From Ectocarpus siliculosus (lineage: Eukaryota > Sar > Phaeophyceae > Ectocarpales > Ectocarpaceae), in the NCBI GenBank assembly GCA_000310025.1, contig FN649752.1, forward strand, positions 3,697,740-3,752,750: a stretch of DNA of 55,011 nt, written 5' to 3'. Below are positions 7,212 to 36,374 of this stretch, in pieces; the first letter of the stretch is position 1; each line of letters opens with the position of its first letter. A program made the position numbers and the translations under genes. The notes below the pieces were generated by a model that saw only the letters and a list, made by a program, of their open reading frames with translations, had not been told where the DNA came from and made no database searches.

Positions 7212-8671
7212 GTGATACAAGCATCTTCAACACACAAACAAGACTCTAGAGTGTATTCCTCGAGGGAACCCGTGCTGGAGGTGAGTGGCGACGATGTTGC
7301 AGGCCAGCCTGCCGACGTCACCACGAGTGAGCAGGACAGGGTCGACAACCTGGAGCGCAGAGTTTCAGGCCTGACGGATGAAGTACAGCAGCTGGCGGAG
7401 CTGCTCCGAGCCGCTCTCGGCAAGGGCAAGAAGGAGGGAGAGTCCGGTAACGCTGGGGTGGGCGTTGTCGTTAAGGGCGCTGCGCCCACCCGCGGTACCC
7501 AGGAGGGGGGACCGCAAAACGAGGAAATCACGCCGCCCTCAACCGGAGCAGACCCGGCGGTTGGGCCGGGTGGTGTGGGTGTCAGGGGATCGCTCCCCCG
7601 AGGTGAGACAACCGAGATGTATGGCGGTGGTATTGGCGGTGTTGGCGGTCTCGGCGAAGAAGGAGACGGTGTTCACAAGAACCCATACAGCAATGTGTGT
7701 GTGTCAGTGCACGCGTCGCGTCTCGAAGGCGACCAGGGATATTACACGTGGAGGAGGGCGTTTATCCAAGCCGCGAAAACGGTCGACATGGACGGCCAGT
7801 TCGAAGGGGCCGCAGAACTCTAGGCAGAAGTCCGAGGTACTGATAAACCCAGAGCTACGTTGCTGGCGGAAGGGTACTCCGAGGCACAGATACACCGCAG
7901 CCTCCAAGCTTTCCACTTCCTGTCCTCGGCCCTGGTGAGGGAATCAGACAAGGCCATCTTCGCCAGATGCGTGACGAATTTGACAAGTTTCACAACCCGG
8001 AATCGCAGGTCGCCACAAAGGAATTGCTCAGCAAGTTCTAGAATTTCGCAATACCTGCCGACAAAAACCCACTGAATCGCTGATCGCCATGGGGCAACTC
8101 GCAAGTCGTCTGAAAGAGAGGGGGGTCAAAGTTGAGGCCTCTGACGTCCTGTCGCCCTTCCTCTCGGCTCTACCGGCCGAGTGCGACCATGCCAGATCGA
8201 CCCTGCAGTCCGCCCAGACTCTGGATCGGGGGGAGATAATCCGCGTGGTGGGCTTCCAGCACTCCAGCATCAAGCAGGGGAAGAGCCATCGGAATGGCAA
8301 CCGCAACCATCAGAAGGCGGCCGAGCAGGCATTTATCGCGAGCGTCGGCAATGGCGGTGGCGGAAAAGCTGGTCGCAACGGCGGCGGCGGGGGACGCGGA
8401 GGCGGCGGCAACGACGGTGGCGGCAACGGCAACGGCAACGGCAACGGCGGTGGAGGCGGTCGCGGTGACGACGGCCGCAGCAGGGGCCGGTTCTACCGGT
8501 GCAACAGGCGAGGGCACCAGTCGTTCTCGTGCACTACCCCCATTACCGAGTTCATGCTCCAATGCGAAGACTGCGACGGATTTGGACACGATAAGAGCAA
8601 GCGCCCGTCGGCGAAGGATGAGGAGGAGGCGAAGGGCGAAACGGCAGTGTCATGGCGATCATGGTGACGAG
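7212..8671 (+). pseudogene. Orphan copia-type gag with degenerate zinc knuckles
   Basis: The first frame (7212-7823) has a short coiled coil (EQDRVDNLERRVSGLTDEVQ, about residues 40-70), a Gly/Pro linker and a gag-like segment (YYTWRRAFIQAAKTVDM). Stops and shifts follow at 7823-8090, but frames still read LLAEGYSEAQIHRSLQAFHF and then LASRLKERGVKVEASDVLSPFLSALP, as in retrotransposon gag. Next come a Gly/Asn low-complexity run (8350-8490) and two CCHC-like knuckles: YRCNRRGHQSFSC, where the first Cys position is not Cys, and CEDCDGFGHDKSKR, where the last Cys is Arg. Gag proteins coat element RNA and the knuckles bind it. No protease, integrase or RT follows, so this is a separate remnant from the copia element at 11.4 kb. 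The frame has no ATG at its 5' end. Confidence 0.7.
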
Positions 8672-21277: not shown

Positions 21278-22595
21278 CAACATGTCAAAAAAATAAACGC
21301 CATTGGGATGAAATGAGGCCTCCTGCTACGAAAAGCCTGGAGACTCCACCCAGGGTTACTACCCCCGCGTTGACGTCCCTCGTCTCGTCAACGCGGCAGT
21401 CGCGCAGAGAGTAATTACCCCAGTAAATAAAATCAAATACAGCGTAGTTGGACGGGTGGGACGGCTGTTATTCTTACCGTACTTTTCCCTCCGTTAGGGT
21501 TGGGAAGGCTTGTCACGAGTGGGCGCTCTCTTCAAGCCTTTGTCGCAGATCATCTGTTCTCATCCACGGAACCCCTTCGTGGTTCCATGATTTCGACATT
21601 ATTTCACTGCGGAATAGTTGTCGACGATGTAGAGTTTGGGATGAAATGAGGCCTCCTGACACGGCGTGGGACCCACCCATACTTCATGTTTTGACCTGTG
21701 TTATCATTCCCTGTCGTTGCCTGAATTGATCCCCACACTTCTCCATCGACGACCCCGCTACCGTAAGTCATTGCTCTTCATTATCCGAAAGCCGAAAAAC
21801 GTTCAGTAAAGCCTTCTTGCAACGGGAGATCGACGGTCTCCATGTACAACCGTTCCTGCTCCTGTTGGCTCTGGGTTCGCCTTCGCTTAGCTGCGACTTC
21901 TCCCCCTTGGATCGTGGGCCCTACATATCGCTGTGCCACCCCCCGCGTCTTCCATCCCACAAAATCCATGAGGACTTCTACCGCCGTCCCCGCTAGCGTT
22001 TGGCTTACCGCTCCTCCTACCCGGAACGAGTGCATGGTAAACTGACCGCCTGCATCGCCCAGGCGACCGTTCCGAATATGGGCTTGTAAAGAGGCGGTCA
22101 TACGCGCCGCCGACCACTGTGACGACCACCGCGAACCGTCGGCGTTGACCTCGGGAAATAGGTACCCCTCCCGCATGTTCCATCCTGCTGACTTGGCTGC
22201 TATGCCAAACCCTTGTATCGCCCGCAACGGGCATAGCTCGGTACATTGACGATCTCGTCGAACTACTACCGCGTGCGACGAGCTTCGGAGGGTCTTGCCG
22301 AAATGAAAATTGAAAATCATCCCCGTTCCGTCAGGAAGGTGCAAGACTTGTGCCGCCAACGCGCACGCCAGATCGAATCCTCGTTGCATCGTGTGGAAGG
22401 CGGTGACAAACAGCGCAATGTCTCGGCTACGGGCTACCCGCGCGCCCACAGTATGCAAGTGACTCGCGGTGTTGCGCATGTATCGCACCAGACGTAGAAG
22501 TAGCGGGGCTAGCATCGGTCGGGCTTGCTTGACGGTAACCCCCACCCTGCGCTGTTCTACTTGAACCCACAACATGTCGAAAAATAAACGCCATT
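21278..22595 (-). mobile_element. Crypton-like YR element bounded by a 26-27-bp direct repeat
   Basis: The recombinase frame (21781-22575) lies between two near-identical direct repeats, CAACATGTC(A/G)AAAAA then TAAACGCCATT, at 21278-21304 and 22570-22595 (one substitution, one indel). The right copy overlaps the start codon of the recombinase. Next to the left copy, a 21-bp sequence (GGGATGAAATGAGG then CCTCCTG) at 21305-21325 recurs exactly at 21638-21658. Whether these are element ends, recombination sites or older local duplications cannot be settled from one copy. Confidence 0.5.
21781..22575 (-). CDS. Crypton-like tyrosine recombinase, intact 264-residue frame
   Basis: The protein has the signature of the phage-integrase/tyrosine recombinase fold, which cuts and rejoins DNA through a covalent Tyr-DNA link. 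Catalytic residues in order: Arg in FHTMQRGFDLA (about residue 65); a Lys in FHFGKT (about 93); H-x-x-R in MHSFRVGG (about 180); Trp in FVGWKTRG (about 204); and the nucleophile Tyr in AQRYVG (about 213). A basic tail AAKRRRTQSQQ follows. An in-frame TAA lies seven codons upstream of the ATG at 22575, so this is the only start in the open frame. The N-terminal core-binding domain is short, so an upstream exon or a 5' truncation is possible. No RT or RNase H adjoins it, which fits a DNA-only YR transposon (Crypton) more than DIRS. It is the only transposon gene in the window with an undamaged frame. YR identity is firm; Crypton assignment is likely but not proven. Confidence 0.85.
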   Translation of the reverse strand: MLWVQVEQRRVGVTVKQARPMLAPLLLRLVRYMRNTASHLHTVGARVARSRDIALFVTAFHTMQRGFDLACALAAQVLHLPDGTGMIFNFHFGKTLRSSSHAVVVRRDRQCTELCPLRAIQGFGIAAKSAGWNMREGYLFPEVNADGSRWSSQWSAARMTASLQAHIRNGRLGDAGGQFTMHSFRVGGAVSQTLAGTAVEVLMDFVGWKTRGVAQRYVGPTIQGGEVAAKRRRTQSQQEQERLYMETVDLPLQEGFTERFSAFG

Positions 22596-25577: not shown

Positions 25578-27836
25578 TTAGTGGCGGGAATACCCTTCGT
25601 CATCCTGGACATCACGAGGAGGGCGACGACTCGCCGCATCACGGCGAGCGTCACCTCTACCCCCCCGCCCTCTTCCTCTCGTAGGCCTGCCCCCCCGTCG
25701 CACCCCACCGGACGGTGATGTTGGCCCTAGAGCACCAGCTATGTTGGAAGGCATCGTGATGGAAAACCTGGTAGATGGACGGGCAGCACCAGCGGGAGCA
25801 GAAACGGGCGGCGGCTGCAGGGAGCCCAGACGCGCCGTCACAGTGAACTGAGTCTTGATGGGCCTGGGAGGGTCTTCCACCATGAACTCGTCCTTCACCA
25901 TGAACTCGTCTTTTACCATGCTGTCCCACCCAGCTGAGCCATTGGGACTTACTGAACGGTCAGCGACATACCTTTCTTCTCGGCGATGCACGCCACTGCT
26001 ACCGGCGTTGTAACGGTCACCTTGAGGCGCATCACCATAGCTTCGCGAGTGGTCATCTCGAGAGAAAGCGCCAGGGTTATCAGCGGGCGAAGCCCAGCCG
26101 TGGCTGACATTGTCGCTTCCCCGCCTGCCACGGCCGCGCCTGCCCAACAACATGCCGCGTTCGCCTCCGCTGTCCTCGCGCCTTGTGCCGCGTTCGCCTC
26201 CGCTGTCCTCGCGCCTTGGGCGGTCGCTCCCTCTTCCACGGCTGGTGTCTCCCTCAGTGCGGCTTTTCTTACTCCTTCTACCATCGAGATTGGCGTCTCC
26301 ACTGTCGCTCTCATACCGGCGTTCGTTCACCCCCGGGCTGACATCGTCTCGATAACGACGCCCTTTCCCCACTGGGCTTGCACTATCGCGACTCCGGCGG
26401 GGGTGATAAGGTCGCTCGTCGCGAGTAGAGCTTCGCCCGTTTCTGTCACCTCTGTCATCTCGACGACTCCGCGGGCGGCTGGTCGATCGAGAGTCACGGC
26501 GCTGCCTAGGACGTCCATCGAGGCGGTGCCTGCGAGAGCCGCGACCTGGTACACTCTGAAGGCTCTCGCTCTTTCGGCTCCCGCCGTGGCCCCTTCGGGA
26601 CTGCTGGACAGCGTCCTGGCTGTACCTGGATAGTCTATCGTCGTTCTTCTTATAGCCACCACTGCTGCGTGGAGGACTCCTCGGGTGGGAGCTACTTCCA
26701 CGCCCTCGTTTCCTCGCATGTTCCGAGATCGGCGATGCATCCCGGCGTGAGCGTCCACGAGATGAGACAGGCGACGATCTCTTCAAATCATTGTGTTCGC
26801 GGTCGCTGTTCCTCCTGTACGGCTCCTCTCGCCACGAGCTCCTACCACCGCTGATTCTGCTCTCACGGTCTCTCCTGCTGTCGCCCCCACCGCTATCGCT
26901 GTCGTTTCCGCCGCCTCGGCCATCAGCCCCATGGCTGTGAGATCTGTATTGATACCCACTCCGACGGGTGTTGCCTGAATTGGCAGTGGGACTCGCCGAG
27001 GAACGCACCCGACCAGGCCCGTTTCGTAGTGCCGGTGGACTAGGAAAGGGCTGCGAGGAAGTGCCGCCTCTAGTCTGTTCCTGATGATCCACGTTCCTGC
27101 CGCTGGTTGCTCCTGGCTGCGGCAAGATTTGCCCTGCCCCGCTGATTCCGCCGGCCTCGTGTTTCGGTTGCCACGGCGTAGCGACACCGACTCCACTCCC
27201 CGTGTACCCACCGGCAGGGTCTGACTTCATGTCTTCTTGAGCTCCGGGACCGGAGCGTCGGTGCATCTCATCCCTACGTACGAACGTCAGGGTAGGAGAC
27301 TGCTCATGGTGGGCCAGTACTGGAACCCTTCCTTGCCTGAAAGGGTTTGGCACCACTCCAGCCCTCGAGGACGACGTGGGTGCGAACGCAGGGCTGGGGA
27401 TAACCGACGGGGGCTTAGACAACGGGGCGGCGAAGCCTGGCCCACCAGCACCCCCGTGGGTGCTTGCGGCCGCTCTTGGGTAAGGCGGCCGCTGGTCATG
27501 ACTGAAGCCACAGTTATTCCCGAAAATGCAGCCCCTGCCCAAGCTGAAGAAACGGCAAGGCATGGGCTCCCCGAGAGTGTCGTTGAAGCCAGACTTGGTC
27601 TGTTTCTCATACCACGTCGAAGCCCTGCGCATGCTGTCCGCGTAAATGCGAATGTTTTCCCTGGACATGAGGGCTTGGTATTGCTCCTCACGCCAGATCG
27701 CCGCCGCCAGGGGAAGTGGGGCGGCTCCAGCGCGGTCACTAGCTTGAGGACTCACGTGCGGCACTGCTTTACCGTTGAGCCCAGTCACAGCGCGCTTGGC
27801 CTCTTCCAGCGACTTCATGTGAACGAACACGAAACC
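25578..27836 (-). CDS. Exon 3: second half of RRM, CCCH finger, RS/RG tail
   Basis: After acceptor TTGTGTAG at 27837-27838, the exon begins GFVFVHMKSLEEAKRAVTGL, which is RNP1, helix 2 and the rest of the RRM. The CCCH finger CRFFSLGRGCIFGNNCGFSH follows 90 residues later. The remaining 630 residues are low complexity: Arg/Ser-rich, with two tandem 11-residue units (RREDSGGERG) near 26150-26220 and a tandem MVKDEF pair near 25880-25920. The end is RG-rich (GRGRGGRGDARR) and the stop is TAA at 25578-25580. Confidence 0.85.
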   Translation of the reverse strand, partial: GFVFVHMKSLEEAKRAVTGLNGKAVPHVSPQASDRAGAAPLPLAAAIWREEQYQALMSRENIRIYADSMRRASTWYEKQTKSGFNDTLGEPMPCRFFSLGRGCIFGNNCGFSHDQRPPYPRAAASTHGGAGGPGFAAPLSKPPSVIPSPAFAPTSSSRAGVVPNPFRQGRVPVLAHHEQSPTLTFVRRDEMHRRSGPGAQEDMKSDPAGGYTGSGVGVATPWQPKHEAGGISGAGQILPQPGATSGRNVDHQEQTRGGTSSQPFPSPPALRNGPGRVRSSASPTANSGNTRRSGYQYRSHSHGADGRGGGNDSDSGGGDSRRDRESRISGGRSSWREEPYRRNSDREHNDLKRSSPVSSRGRSRRDASPISEHARKRGRGSSSHPRSPPRSSGGYKKNDDRLSRYSQDAVQQSRRGHGGSRKSESLQSVPGRGSRRHRLDGRPRQRRDSRSTSRPRSRRDDRGDRNGRSSTRDERPYHPRRSRDSASPVGKGRRYRDDVSPGVNERRYESDSGDANLDGRRSKKSRTEGDTSRGRGSDRPRREDSGGERGTRREDSGGERGMLLGRRGRGRRGSDNVSHGWASPADNPGAFSRDDHSRSYGDAPQGDRYNAGSSGVHRREERYVADRSVSPNGSAGWDSMVKDEFMVKDEFMVEDPPRPIKTQFTVTARLGSLQPPPVSAPAGAARPSTRFSITMPSNIAGALGPTSPSGGVRRGGRPTRGRGRGGRGDARRDAASRRPPRDVQDDEGYSRH

Positions 27837-30800
27837 CTACACAAAGTTGAGGCGAAAGCAGAGAAGGGTAGAGAAAGTTCGAGACAGGCGAGTTTAGGGA
27901 CCACTTGTCGAGCCTCACAGTGCAACACCACTAACGCTGAAATGGACAGCGTACCTGGGAGCACCAGGGCAGCAGGGTGCTTAAGTCAATTATTGGGGAG
28001 CGAGCGCAACGAGGATGATATTCCAACAAATTCGGAAATGTGTGGTTCCACGGGTCTTCGGGTCTTCAGCGCTCTTCGCCTATCATCCCATTGCCAACAT
28101 ATTGATTTTTCTCGATGCTATGACTCCCTCTTTCTCGGTACAGCCCATGCGTGAAGGACAGATCTGAAAATGTGTTGGAAAAAAAATTCGATTCACTCAT
28201 ATATGACCTTGTGCCAATGCAAAGGCCGCAGCTGTTCGCGTATCTACCTCTAACAACGGAGAGGGCTTCCATCACAGCAAGAGAAGGGGCGCAGGGGGTC
28301 GGAGACACCAACAAACACGCGATGATCTGTAGGCCGTTGCTGTTCTGTTGCGATTTACTCGAAAACGCGCGGCAGGAGAAAGCTCCAAGCATGTCCATAC
28401 GTGTGCAGCACAGACCAGTAACGAGGAAGAAGCTGCACCACTCCACAAAACTAAAGTGACACGGACAGAACACAAAACTACCAAAAGATAGACTCGGGTT
28501 GGAGGGCAGCGGCAGCATATCCAGAGCAGCGAACTCGAAGACATTGAAAACTCATTTTCACCTCCAACACCTCGATCTTCCCAACAACGCCGAATGTAGA
28601 AACCAGCGCATGTATCCTTCGCTCAGGAACAGCCGGGTGCGTCCCCTTGATCATGAGTCGAGCGCCTTGTGCACGCACAGGCATCGGAGTTAGAGGCCGC
28701 AGAGAGGACGGCGGCGGCAGCAACGCAGGAGCGAGGTGGGGAGGAACAGGTCGACCTTGTCTGAGACCCACTTGACTGCCTCCGCCTCCGTCTCCATTCA
28801 GCCAATTGCCCACCATTGGGTGGCCGCTTCCTGCCGAGTACCCATCTCCTAGTGGTCCTGCTCCTGCGTGGTACAGCTTCCCAGGAGGGTCGAAATTGGA
28901 AGGAAACCTACCGCCACTGCCCACCGTGCCCTCAACCAAGCGGCGCGTGCCGGACGACGAAGCCAGCGCAGGAACAGGAGCTCCGCCTAGAGCACGAGGA
29001 ATCACAGGGTCAATCGTCGGCCTGCCTCCTGCTGCACCCGCCACCGCAGGAGCGGGTGTGCCGGCGACGGCGAGAGGGATCACTGGATCCATCATCTGCC
29101 CCCCTACCGCCACCCGGCCGACAGCGCCACGGCCGTTCTCCTGGCCCTTCCTGGTTTCTTCGGGGGTACCACGGAGAGGTTCGGTACCGTAGCCCACCGG
29201 AGAAGCACTTCTTCCACTTCGTCGTAAAGCTCCGACACAACCTCCCTGGCGAGCACTGTCACCAGGCCTTACTTCATCTTCTTCCGGTCTCTCCAAGCTA
29301 CGCTCTTTTGCCGCCTTCCTGGACGAGACTGCACGAGAGGGCATGTCACGATCGCGACCAGCGGCCGCGCGAGTGCTCCCGTGCCTTCCGCGAGGATCAG
29401 ACGATCCGAGATGATCCCCACGAGAGCGATGGGTAGGGCCGCGCTCTGCAGAATCATGCCCGCCGATGCCACGAGGTGGGCTACGCCTGGGCGAGGTGGT
29501 GCGCCTAGATGGGCTGAGGCGCCTTGCTGGGCTTCCGCGCCTGTGGGGACTTCTCCTACGTGGGCTTCGGCTGTGCGATCTACGCCAATTCCCGCTGTTC
29601 TTGCGCGAGCTACTCATGCGTGGCGGGGTGGTACCCCTGCGTTGGCCGCGGCTACTACGCGGGCTCAATTCCCTGCTGGAGGGGGTACGCCCCCGAGGGC
29701 TCGGGCTACGCCCCCGACGCCGCTGCTGTTGACTGTTGCGTTCGTGAGGGCTGGGCCGACCAGTCGTCCGCGAGAATCTGCGCCCCCTCGAGGAGGAGCG
29801 CGACGCTCCGTGAGCTGGACGAAGGCGCCCGTCCCTCCGATGTCCGCCCGACACCCCTTTGTCCCAGCTGTGGCTACGGCTACGGCTGCGGCGGCGAGGG
29901 GGAGGGCTCCGACTCCGGCTCCACTCCCGGCCTACTCTTGCATCTTCGTCCCTTCTCGAACGTGCATCAGGATGAGAGCGCGCATATCCCACGCTGTTGC
30001 CGAGCGGGCCCGATGTGGGTCGAACTAATGCCGGTCGAGAGCCGTGTCCCGCCCCGCCAGGGAGGCCTTGGTCTGGTTCATCGTAGGAGTCGCCCCGTCC
30101 CCCAGGGCTACGTCCGTGAGAACGACTGTCTTGATTCCTTAGAGCATTCTGGTTGACGAACGTGCGGGTGAGTGGCTGGGTGCTTCCTCGATCGCCCACA
30201 CTGTTGGGACCCGTAGCCGCGACCGAGTTGCTGTCCTTTACCACAAACTTTTCTTCCAGTCGGATCTCTCCGTCTTGCCCATGGCCGTATAAGCCGATGC
30301 CATACAGTCCACTACCTGTTGTCAAGAGTGCGCGGAGCTTCGTGTCACGTGCAACGCACAACAGCGGCGGCGGGGGGGGGGAGGGGAGGAGGAAGGGGGT
30401 GAGACGGGGGGGGTGGCCAAGTAGGAAGCGAAGGCACAGAAAGACCAGCATATTGTTACCCTCATTGCCACACTCCATGTCGAGACCTAGCACGTGTTAG
30501 CACGTGAAACACAATCGTGAATGACTGCGGTTACATAATCAGTATGTACGCAACGTTTTCTGGGAACAAATACCCACAAGTCCAAATACCCACAAGTCGC
30601 CAAGTATCGACGAAAAACCACGCCCGCAACGACTCCTCATTGCGCACAATGTTGAGTCGACTCGGCATGCGACGAGTGACAAACTCTGCGTATCCACGCG
30701 TCTACACAAAACAAATATGCAAATCCAAACGGCCACGCGATCACATCTTATCTCACTTTCTTCCCCTGAAGATTCATAGCCCGCTTGTGACGACGCTTGA

Positions 30801-31542
30801 AGAGCTTGGCAATGGAGCTCATCTCGCACCTCCCGCCGCAACTCCGGAGCATGGCCTTGAGCTCTTCGCTGACGCGCTTCCGGAACATGCCCTCCGACTG
30901 CCCCCCCCAATACTCTTGCTTTCGTCCGGCCTCCACTTCGACCCTACCGGCGGTGATGCCCACCTTGGGCTTCAAAACGTCCTTCCCAGCCATCCCCTCC
31001 GTGGAGGCGTCCCCTGCTGGCTCGCCGGAGGCAACAGCAGCACCGGGGGGAGGATTGCCAACATTGCGGGGTGCGCACAGGGCGCCCGATAGTGCGTCGT
31101 CCAAGTCACCCTCCCCCTCCGCGCTGCCTCGCTCCGACAAGGTCTCCGCCGAGTCCCGAGCATTTTCCTCCTCCTGTTGTTTTCCGGCCACTGCTGGGGA
31201 AGCTTTCGAAGTCCCGCTCGGCACAGATGTAGCAGGGGCAGCGGCAGGGGCAGGAGCAGCAGGAGGAGCCGCAGCGGTAACGGCAACGGCGGGCGCAGTG
31301 GCAGGGGCGGAGACAGCACCACCATCACCAACGCTCGCTGCTGATTGAAGTGGGTCAGAGCCGGACTTGGGTGTCGTGGGCGTCGACGAGGACGGCGCCG
31401 GCAACGGTTTGCCAGAGTCGCTGGTAGGTTCCGTGCTAAACCCCTCTGTCTTGATAGAGGCCTTGTTCACGGAAGCTTCGGTCTTGACGGAAGTTTCGGT
31501 CTTGACGGAAGCTTCGGTCTTGACCGAAGCTTCACTCTTCAT
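25578..31542 (-). CDS. LOTUS (OST-HTH) + RS + RRM + CCCH zinc-finger protein, three exons
   Basis: Joining 31542-30757, 30337-28562 and 27836-25578 gives one frame of about 1606 residues; all three exons are multiples of three and both junctions are phase 0. Order: SUMO-type motifs (residues 2-33); Ala/Pro/Ser-rich linker; LOTUS/OST-HTH (about 218-297); RS region (about 400-555); Gly/Pro linker; RRM (about 821-880); CCCH finger with Cys 948, 957, 963 and His 967 (C-x8-C-x5-C-x3-H); second basic RS/RG region (about 1130-1400); and an RG-rich C-terminus. LOTUS domains occur in Oskar, TDRD5/7 and MARF1, where they bind RNA or Vasa-type helicases; RS regions mark splicing or speckle proteins. RNA binding is therefore likely; its targets are unknown. 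Both introns split a domain exactly, which strongly supports the model. The start is the first ATG in frame, but an AG at 31585-31584 could be an acceptor joining an upstream exon. I know of no named family with this full order. Confidence 0.85.
27837..28561 (-). other. Intron 2 of the LOTUS-RS gene (725 nt)
   Basis: GT at 28561-28560 and AG at 27838-27837. It splits the RRM between strand 2 and RNP1. The loop between the two halves is slightly shorter than usual for an RRM, so an alternative donor or a small extra exon cannot be excluded. No other feature was found inside. Confidence 0.75.
28562..30337 (-). CDS. Exon 2: second half of LOTUS, RS region, first half of RRM
   Basis: The acceptor lies after a long pyrimidine tract (30365-30420 on the plus strand is G-rich), reading ACACGAAG|CTCCGC. 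The exon starts LRALLTTGSGLYGIGLYGHG then QDGEIRLEEK, the end of the LOTUS fold. The RS region includes SRSRSPPPRRRSRSRSHS and several SPRR/SPSR repeats. The exon ends with ARLMIKGTHPAV then STFGVVGKIEVLE, meaning strand 1 (RNP2), helix 1 and strand 2 of an RRM. The donor is GAG|GTGAAA at 28561. The open frame extends upstream to 30493, but that part is translated intron. Confidence 0.85.
30338..30756 (-). other. Intron 1 of the LOTUS-RS gene (419 nt)
   Basis: GT at 30756-30755 and AG at 30339-30338, with a strong C/T tract before the acceptor. It interrupts the LOTUS domain in phase 0 between GKK and LRALL. Confidence 0.8.
30757..31542 (-). CDS. Exon 1: SUMO-motif array and first half of LOTUS
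   Basis: The exon opens with a tandem 18-bp DNA repeat encoding SVKTEA-like units, giving VKTE three times and IKTE once. A low-complexity Ala/Pro/Ser segment and an acidic patch (SAEGEGDLDDALS) follow. The exon ends in FRKRVSEELKAMLRSCGG, then SSIAKLFKRRHKRAMNLQGKK: helices 1-3 of a LOTUS fold. The donor is AAA|GTGAGA, with the intron starting at 30756. Without splicing, the frame stops two codons later. Confidence 0.85.
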
Positions 31543-31871
31543 GCTCTGGGGGCCCGATATGAGGCTCTCGGCAGTATCCGGGCCTTGAACAACAAGGCGG
31601 AAAGGAGGGAACGGAGGAAACGAAGAAACGAGGGATGGATCAGATGAGCGAGCGCAAACATGAGATATGTACGCAAGGGTGGCTGCGACATTGCTGAAAC
31701 CACCGCCGTCACCCCAACGTATGTTGCCAACGAGGACAAGCAAGAGGTGAAGCGCCGCAAAAAATTGAAACCAACAAGACTAGACGTGACCAGGCCAGAG
31801 CCACGTGACAACAACCGTCGCCATGCTGTTCGTCCGCGGGGCCAACTCAAAAGGGGCGGGGATTATTTTTG

Positions 31872-35491: not shown

Positions 35492-35912
35492 CGAACCGCT
35501 CCCATGAGTACTCGCGCAAGTCCTCGATCCAAGTCATGCAGAGGTTGCGCATTTCTTGCTTCTTGAGCTCCAGGGCAACTCCCTCGAGTTCCTTCGTGGA
35601 TTCACGGATGATAGCTTCCATGTTGGGCAGCATGGGTTGGGTGAGCTGTTCGATCGACNNNNNNNNNNNNNNNNNNNNNNNNNNNNNNNNNNNNNNNNNN
35701 NNNNNNNNNNNNNNNNNNNNNNNNNNNNNNNNNNNNNNNNNNNNNNNNNNNNNNNNNNCACCCTTTCCATGCTGCCCAACATGGAAGCTATCATCCGTGA
35801 ATCCACTAAGGAACTCGAGGGAGTTGCCCTGGAGCTCAAGAAGCAAGAAATGCGCAACTTCTGCATGACTTGGATCGAGGACTTGCGCGAGTACTCATGG
35901 GAGCGGTTCGGT
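35492..35912. repeat. Inverted duplication flanking the assembly gap
   Basis: 35492-35640 is nearly the exact reverse complement of 35762-35912 (for example CATGAGTACTCGCGCAAGTC and its complement near 35885). The translated arms differ by one residue in the first 50 (L versus F). They diverge sharply outside GGTGGC. Exactly 100 Ns at 35659-35758 is a placeholder gap of unknown size. Confidence 0.85.
35659..35758. other. Assembly gap, 100 Ns
   Basis: A run of exactly 100 undetermined bases, the usual placeholder for a gap of unknown length. Frames that read through it are artefacts. Confidence 1.
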
Positions 35913-36374
35913 GGCCACGACGACGCGAAGTTCAGGACGCAGCTGTTGCTCTTCAAGGCTGCTCGTGCGATCACACCATCGTTCGTTGCGATGCACGAGG
36001 ACATGCAGAAGATGTCGGAGAGCGTGGAAGGATTGAGATCCTTCAAGTTCGTGAATCCCGCCGTCTTCACGAACCTGCTGGTGGAGCTCCCGAGGTACTT
36101 CTCCACCGTCAAGAGCCTCCCGGACTTGTCCACCTCAACCCGAGACTTCTGGCTGTGCAACAAGGATGAGCTTCCATCGTGGTTCGACCTGGTCCGCAAG
36201 CTGTGGCTTCTGCAGCCGTCTTCGGCGATGATGGAACGTGCCTTTTCCGTCATGAACAACGTTTTCGGCAAGCAGCAGACACACATGCTGAACGACCTGT
36301 TCGAGCTGACTGTGATATTGCGTTTCAACCGCGGCCTTGCGCGCTCGACGAATGATGCGCCAGTGGTAGTTTAG
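35760..36374 (+). pseudogene. hAT transposase, C-terminal fragment
   Basis: From the gap to the stop at 36372-36374, the frame gives 204 residues. The end carries the hAT dimerisation region: ELPSWFDLVRKLWLLQPSSA, then MMERAFSVMNNVFGKQQT and a final hydrophobic helix with LRFNRG. The pattern SSA-x2-ER-x-FS is the hallmark of that domain. The part before it (ITPSFVAMHEDMQKMSES, then a helical segment) would be the end of the catalytic core. Full hAT transposases are usually 600-800 residues, so at least two thirds are missing. The frame itself is undamaged. The first codons after the gap are TLSMLPNMEAIIRESTKEL. Confidence 0.8.

Follow-up and report, generated by a model that had tools for sequence, protein, structure and literature searches.

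We have analysed a stretch of 55,011 nucleotides from the brown alga Ectocarpus siliculosus (contig FN649752.1; the window, hereafter), in which three exons between positions 31542 and 25578 join into an open frame of 1606 residues. All coordinates are positions in this whole stretch, and the gene with all its features lies on the minus strand. Its product is most likely a long RNA-handling nuclear protein, with two well-supported RNA-binding domains (an RRM and a CCCH zinc finger) and arginine-serine (RS) tracts. With slightly better than even confidence, we prefer to read it as a nuclear protein that binds RNA and is SR-like (SR-related), from a stramenopile alga bearing fucoxanthin. An OST-HTH/LOTUS domain, which an earlier sequence-only reading of the same DNA had placed in this protein, has not been confirmed.

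RRM, CCCH finger, RS tracts and end repeats

The RRM, said to be split by the second intron, and the CCCH finger have both been recovered in the joined protein by Pfam profiles. RRM_1 (PF00076) matches residues 823–879 with 22.5 bits in the whole protein and 28.5 bits for the region alone, over the cut-off of 20.7, and this match lies across a splice join. Actually, the first half (28562..28657, residues 823–854) gives no match by itself and the second half (27762..27836, residues 855–879, beginning with GFVFVHM) gives 17.4 bits, while the two joined across intron 2 give the 28.5 bits. A PDB search with the RRM places it nearest to Npl3, a protein of SR type, and to a poly(A)-binding protein.

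About 70 residues behind the RRM, and with arginine-serine-rich tracts on both sides, stands a single CCCH finger of the form CX8CX5CX3H (27492..27560, residues 947–969). The profile zf-CCCH_4 is over its cut-off of 24.6 both in the whole protein (25.3 bits) and alone (31.1 bits), while zf-CCCH, with a cut-off of 20.5, is under it in the whole protein (16.5 bits) and over it alone (22.5 bits). That is, the residue pattern and an over-cut-off profile match are found together. The finger has weak matches only in PDB, the best being a C3H1-type protein and the second ZMAT5 (E 0.0039), a minor-spliceosome protein. A single-sequence structure model of the start of exon 3 is too poor for use (mean predicted local distance difference test score, pLDDT, 37.6).

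Of the two RS-type regions proposed before, the one upstream of the RRM (29366..30040, residues 362–586) is indeed RS-rich: arginine and serine make up 46.7% of its 225 residues, and it contains 30 RS/SR dipeptides, where shuffling its letters gives 24.0 and reaches 30 in 163 of 2000 cases. The other (26094..27005, residues 1132–1435), which consists of 13 overlapping pieces under a 40% rule, is R/S-rich (38–44% R+S) but shows no dipeptide excess, the count of each piece being reached in 469 or more of 2000 shuffles. The densest 50 residues contain 12 RS/SR dipeptides at residue 403, upstream of the RRM, and 9 at residue 1288 when counted from residue 1001 on.

In addition, Tandem Repeats Finder reports an 18-bp tandem repeat near each end of the coding sequence, with 3.6 copies at the N-terminal end (31469..31533) and 2.4 copies at 25878..25920. 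The units are six residues long and carry VKTE or VKDE, which are of the psiKxE form, the SUMO consensus motif. In and beside the N-terminal repeat, residues 1–33 hold MKSE, three VKTE and IKTE, and the second repeat holds two VKDE. The total of seven [VILMF]KxE motifs (five in residues 1–33, two in residues 1495–1504) compares with 0.33 in whole-protein shuffles, none of 5000 of which reaches seven. The two arrays differ from each other in sequence, and a genome search with the peptide of the N-terminal array matches only its own locus. These repeats, a feature of the candidate factor that goes beyond the earlier reading, may serve as SUMO acceptor arrays tuning assembly or solubility, though this suggestion is weaker than those on the domains.

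Gene structure and the proposed LOTUS domain

The open frames and the phase-0 join of the three exons have been confirmed at 31542-30757, 30337-28562 and 27836-25578, in agreement with the roughly 1606 residues claimed before. Exon 1 (residues 1–262) contains the psiKxE repeats, a low-complexity stretch and a basic helical segment at its end, exon 2 codes for residues 263–854, and exon 3 codes for residues 855–1606 and ends with the stop codon TAA. When frame 0 was simulated with a first-order Markov model, it was free of stops in 4 of 2000 runs for exon 1 and in none of 2000 for exon 2 or for exon 3, and so few open runs make chance an unlikely source of these frames. Intron 1 (30338..30756, 419 bp) runs from the donor GTGAGA to the acceptor CACGAAG, and intron 2 (27837..28561, 725 bp) from GTGAAA to TGTGTAG. 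Both are of phase 0, have a length of 2 mod 3 and contain stop codons in all three frames, and the GC content is 0.62–0.64 in the exons (0.628 in exon 1) against 0.50–0.53 in the introns (0.53 in intron 1). A perfect 33-bp tandem duplication within exon 3 (26153-26218) keeps the frame.

The analysis shows that exons 2 and 3, at the least, are parts of one gene. Both joins had been taken as well supported, and for intron 2 this stands, since joining turns the RRM half-domains into one scoring RRM; across intron 1, on the other hand, no confirmed domain extends. Exon 1 is most probably part of this gene too, as judged from the splice signals, the open frame and the base composition. For intron 1, six in-frame acceptors were found down to position 30200, of which 30337 is the first after a long polypyrimidine stretch that lies some way before CACGAAG. 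The five alternatives were compared by position only: the two upstream of it would lengthen the protein by 41 and 45 residues, and the three downstream would cut into the alleged second half of the LOTUS domain. At the other end, the start codon at 31542 is doubtful and an upstream exon is possible, because the frame upstream of this ATG is open up to 31779 with no further ATG, and a polypyrimidine tract with an AG (31583-31650) lies just upstream of the proposed ATG. The tract is acceptor-like, and would put an exon start at 31583.

Intron 1 had been said to split a LOTUS domain as intron 2 splits the RRM, and only the latter part has held. The alleged halves lie at 30757..30897 (residues 216–262) and 30242..30337 (residues 263–294). 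No Pfam match to OST-HTH (PF12872) was found at the limit of E 10 in the joined protein, in slices of 111 and 72 residues, or in either half. All four known eukaryotic LOTUS controls exceed the curated cut-off of 23.8 bits (TDRD7 55.8, TDRD5 48.9, FI02030p 46.9 and Oskar 32.0 bits). Since the Pfam filters drop weak matches, most of those above about E 0.1, we have also made our own profiles with the filters off, namely a eukaryotic one from four known chains, a bacterial one from nine OST-HTH domains in 30 genomes, and a mixed one. The segment scores 2.3, −1.0 and 1.2 bits with them, respectively, and 113, 2459 and 319 of 10,000 shuffles do as well, while in leave-one-out controls all 13 known OST-HTH domains beat all 2000 shuffles, Oskar doing so with only 6.2 bits (mixed profile).

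Global profile alignment gives the segment z values of 1.1–1.4, versus 10.5–17.7 for the four known eukaryotic domains. The segment score is reached by 35, 36 and 61 of 400 shuffles, and by 91, 38 and 77 of 400 when the hydrophobic pattern is kept. With hhalign, the probability is 0.2% against the bacterial alignment and 0.6% against the mixed one. Overall, the segment is not clearly closer to the family than its shuffles are, and the LOTUS identity is rejected at the sequence level by Pfam, by our own profiles with shuffles and leave-one-out controls, by global alignment and by hhalign. On present evidence we would not list the gene among the LOTUS proteins.

Known relatives and rival explanations

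Among known systems, SR-like RRM proteins share with this protein an RRM and one or more RS-rich tracts longer than 50 residues, but here the RRM is central rather than N-terminal, a CCCH finger is present and the length is 1606 residues. By the definition in the passages of PMC7105729, a plant SR protein has one RRM, or two, at its N-terminal end, and towards the C terminus an RS region that spans no fewer than 50 residues and contains RS/SR dipeptides at 20% or more. The RRM at 823–879 of 1606 is far from such a position, and we therefore speak of an SR-like and not of an SR protein. As to the C-terminal RS region, the nine dipeptides in the best 50 residues (1288) amount to 18% per residue and to more if counted as residues, the counting rule being unstated in that definition (PMC7105729).

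AtC3H18 likewise unites a single CCCH finger with a single RRM (PMC9335048, in part). It differs in having a LOTUS domain, a length of 536 residues and, as the construct borders suggest, the CCCH and LOTUS before the RRM, whereas the finger of the present protein comes after its RRM and a LOTUS has not been confirmed; the passages on AtC3H18 mention no RS tract. This plant protein with CCCH, LOTUS and RRM is described there as going to messenger ribonucleoprotein granules. The multi-domain OST-HTH proteins of stramenopiles, as outlined in PMC2848206, are similar as large RNA-binding proteins of photosynthetic stramenopiles, but their OST-HTH was found by profile, and in the protein here the profiles recover none. 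Fusions of OST-HTH with CCCH and RRM domains were described in 2010, the stramenopile examples being very large and multidomain (PMC2848206). From what these sources report, the LOTUS/CCCH/RRM combination is not new in kind even with a LOTUS, as such fusions are already in print (PMC2848206, PMC9335048). In the open-access literature we have found no paper with 'LOTUS domain' and 'RS domain' together, and none with 'CCCH', 'RRM', 'RS domain' and 'stramenopile' together. A single paper there, on mitochondrial RNases, has both 'LOTUS domain' and 'brown alga', and 'OST-HTH' occurs with 'stramenopile' in four, PMC2848206 among them.

The sequence-only reading held that a single LOTUS-RS-RRM-CCCH protein could link nuclear RNA processing with cytoplasmic granules, of which the RRM/CCCH/RS region in one gene stands and the granule half rests on the failing LOTUS. 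We regard such a protein, with a true but divergent OST-HTH, as quite improbable. Within the protein, the windows that score best with the eukaryotic and mixed profiles do overlap the alleged segment, and its global scores are slightly above those of shuffles; the best windows with the bacterial profile lie elsewhere, the hidden Markov model alignment takes in no more than the first helix and one further short piece, and the segment fails where the known domains pass. A single-sequence model, which covers the exon 1 half, is helical (helices 25-43, 49-59 and 61-64; mean pLDDT 65.6, with a block of 77–81 over model residues 31–60), and this speaks for the divergent domain. Foldseek with the same model returns two weak matches (the NCX1 two-helix bundle and caspase-6) and no LOTUS row. 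A divergent winged helix in the exon 1 region is conceivable, as the helix-rich model would fit a winged helix too. More speculative, and very improbable in our estimate, is a scaffold with central RNA-binding domains, RS tracts around them, a winged helix diverged from LOTUS beyond recognition and SUMO arrays near the ends. If it were true, SUMO and phosphorylation together would switch such a scaffold between speckle and granule states.

Two further alternatives leave the LOTUS aside. The locus may hold two genes, exon 1 being a separate 264-residue protein that reads on into GTGAGATAA, and exons 2 and 3 being an RRM-CCCH-RS gene with its own start, for example an in-frame ATG in 30496-30338. 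The frame of exon 2 is open upstream to 30496, with ATGs, and no confirmed domain bridges intron 1; against these points stand the GTGAGA donor, the polypyrimidine stretch before the acceptor and the GC content of only 0.53 in the intron 1 stretch, and we consider two genes unlikely. Slightly more doubtful is an algal counterpart of a U2AF35/ZRSR-type or RBM26/27-type factor, with a role either in the decay of nuclear RNA or at the 3' splice site. CCCH and RRM are present, with RS as in U2AF35, and the order RRM-CCCH-RS is that of the C-terminal part of U2AF35. However, U2AF35 and ZRSR proteins have two CCCH fingers, one on each side of an RRM-like domain that is non-canonical in U2AF35, while the Pfam scan gives a single CCCH stretch here. 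RBM26 and RBM27 also have CCCH and RRM in one protein, but combine them with a PWI domain at the N-terminal side, as stated in part of PMC11556708, and act with the PAXT decay complex, according to the passages of PMC8833553; no PWI is among the Pfam matches at the limit of E 10 in the joined protein.

Several points weigh against the SR-like reading that we prefer. In the first region RS/SR dipeptides exceed what its composition predicts by a small margin, and in the second they do not; RS tracts are also known from proteins that take no part in splicing. Since tandem duplication accounts for most of the psiKxE motifs, few of them are independent events. The gene model comes from the genomic sequence of this one species, and an exon-by-exon search has revealed no paralogue in the genome, a result which does not imply its absence.

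Genomic setting and proposed role

The same kind of search finds no RRM-CCCH outside the window in this genome, and none of TDRD7 LOTUS, the latter search being without a positive control. A match of E 0.82 on another contig in the paralogue/LOTUS search, read as DNA only, was judged to be chance. The PF12872 family search gives nothing in this genome, but the control genomes are silent too; among 30 bacterial genomes, 11 give matches. As this genome is searched one exon at a time, none of these negatives implies absence. No relatives were found in viral contigs. A DNA search for the 18S gene gave no match. The stramenopile context assumed before fits the genome, which contains 87 matches to the chlorophyll-binding (light-harvesting) family. 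For the single match that was compared with PDB, the closest chain is FCP17 (entry 9ygv, 366 bits), followed by other fucoxanthin-chlorophyll proteins. On contigs C92, C232 and C488, eighteen light-harvesting matches have equal scores (127.6 bits), and may represent a tandem array or unplaced repeats.

The window has 43 open reading frames of at least 170 residues, three of which are the exons of this gene. In the 18 that were scanned with Pfam, no neighbouring frame has a match over the cut-off. Below the cut-off, the frame at 7984-8664 shows weak matches to copia-type gag and a CCHC zinc knuckle, and is possibly a retrotransposon remnant, and in the frame at 21784-22593 the phage integrase family scores weakly (E 0.076). 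The translation of the frame at 35508-36371 holds a run of X, that is, the DNA there reads N.

As an SR-like protein, the product would hold pre-mRNA or mRNA by its RRM and CCCH finger. The RS tracts, switched by phosphorylation, would localise it to nuclear speckles and, in a modification-dependent manner, recruit splicing factors or 3'-end/export factors to the RNA that it holds, and SUMO at the end repeats may tune the assembly. Both the nuclear location and any process are steps that we infer from the sequence. The passages of a review (PMC8138125) describe speckle retention of SR proteins through RS-RS interactions, as well as modification-dependent recruitment by RS proteins, and rank components of splicing among the main targets of SUMO. 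With the LOTUS unconfirmed, we would class the product as a new SR-like RRM/CCCH protein, which leaves a candidate algal factor for splicing or mRNA processing.

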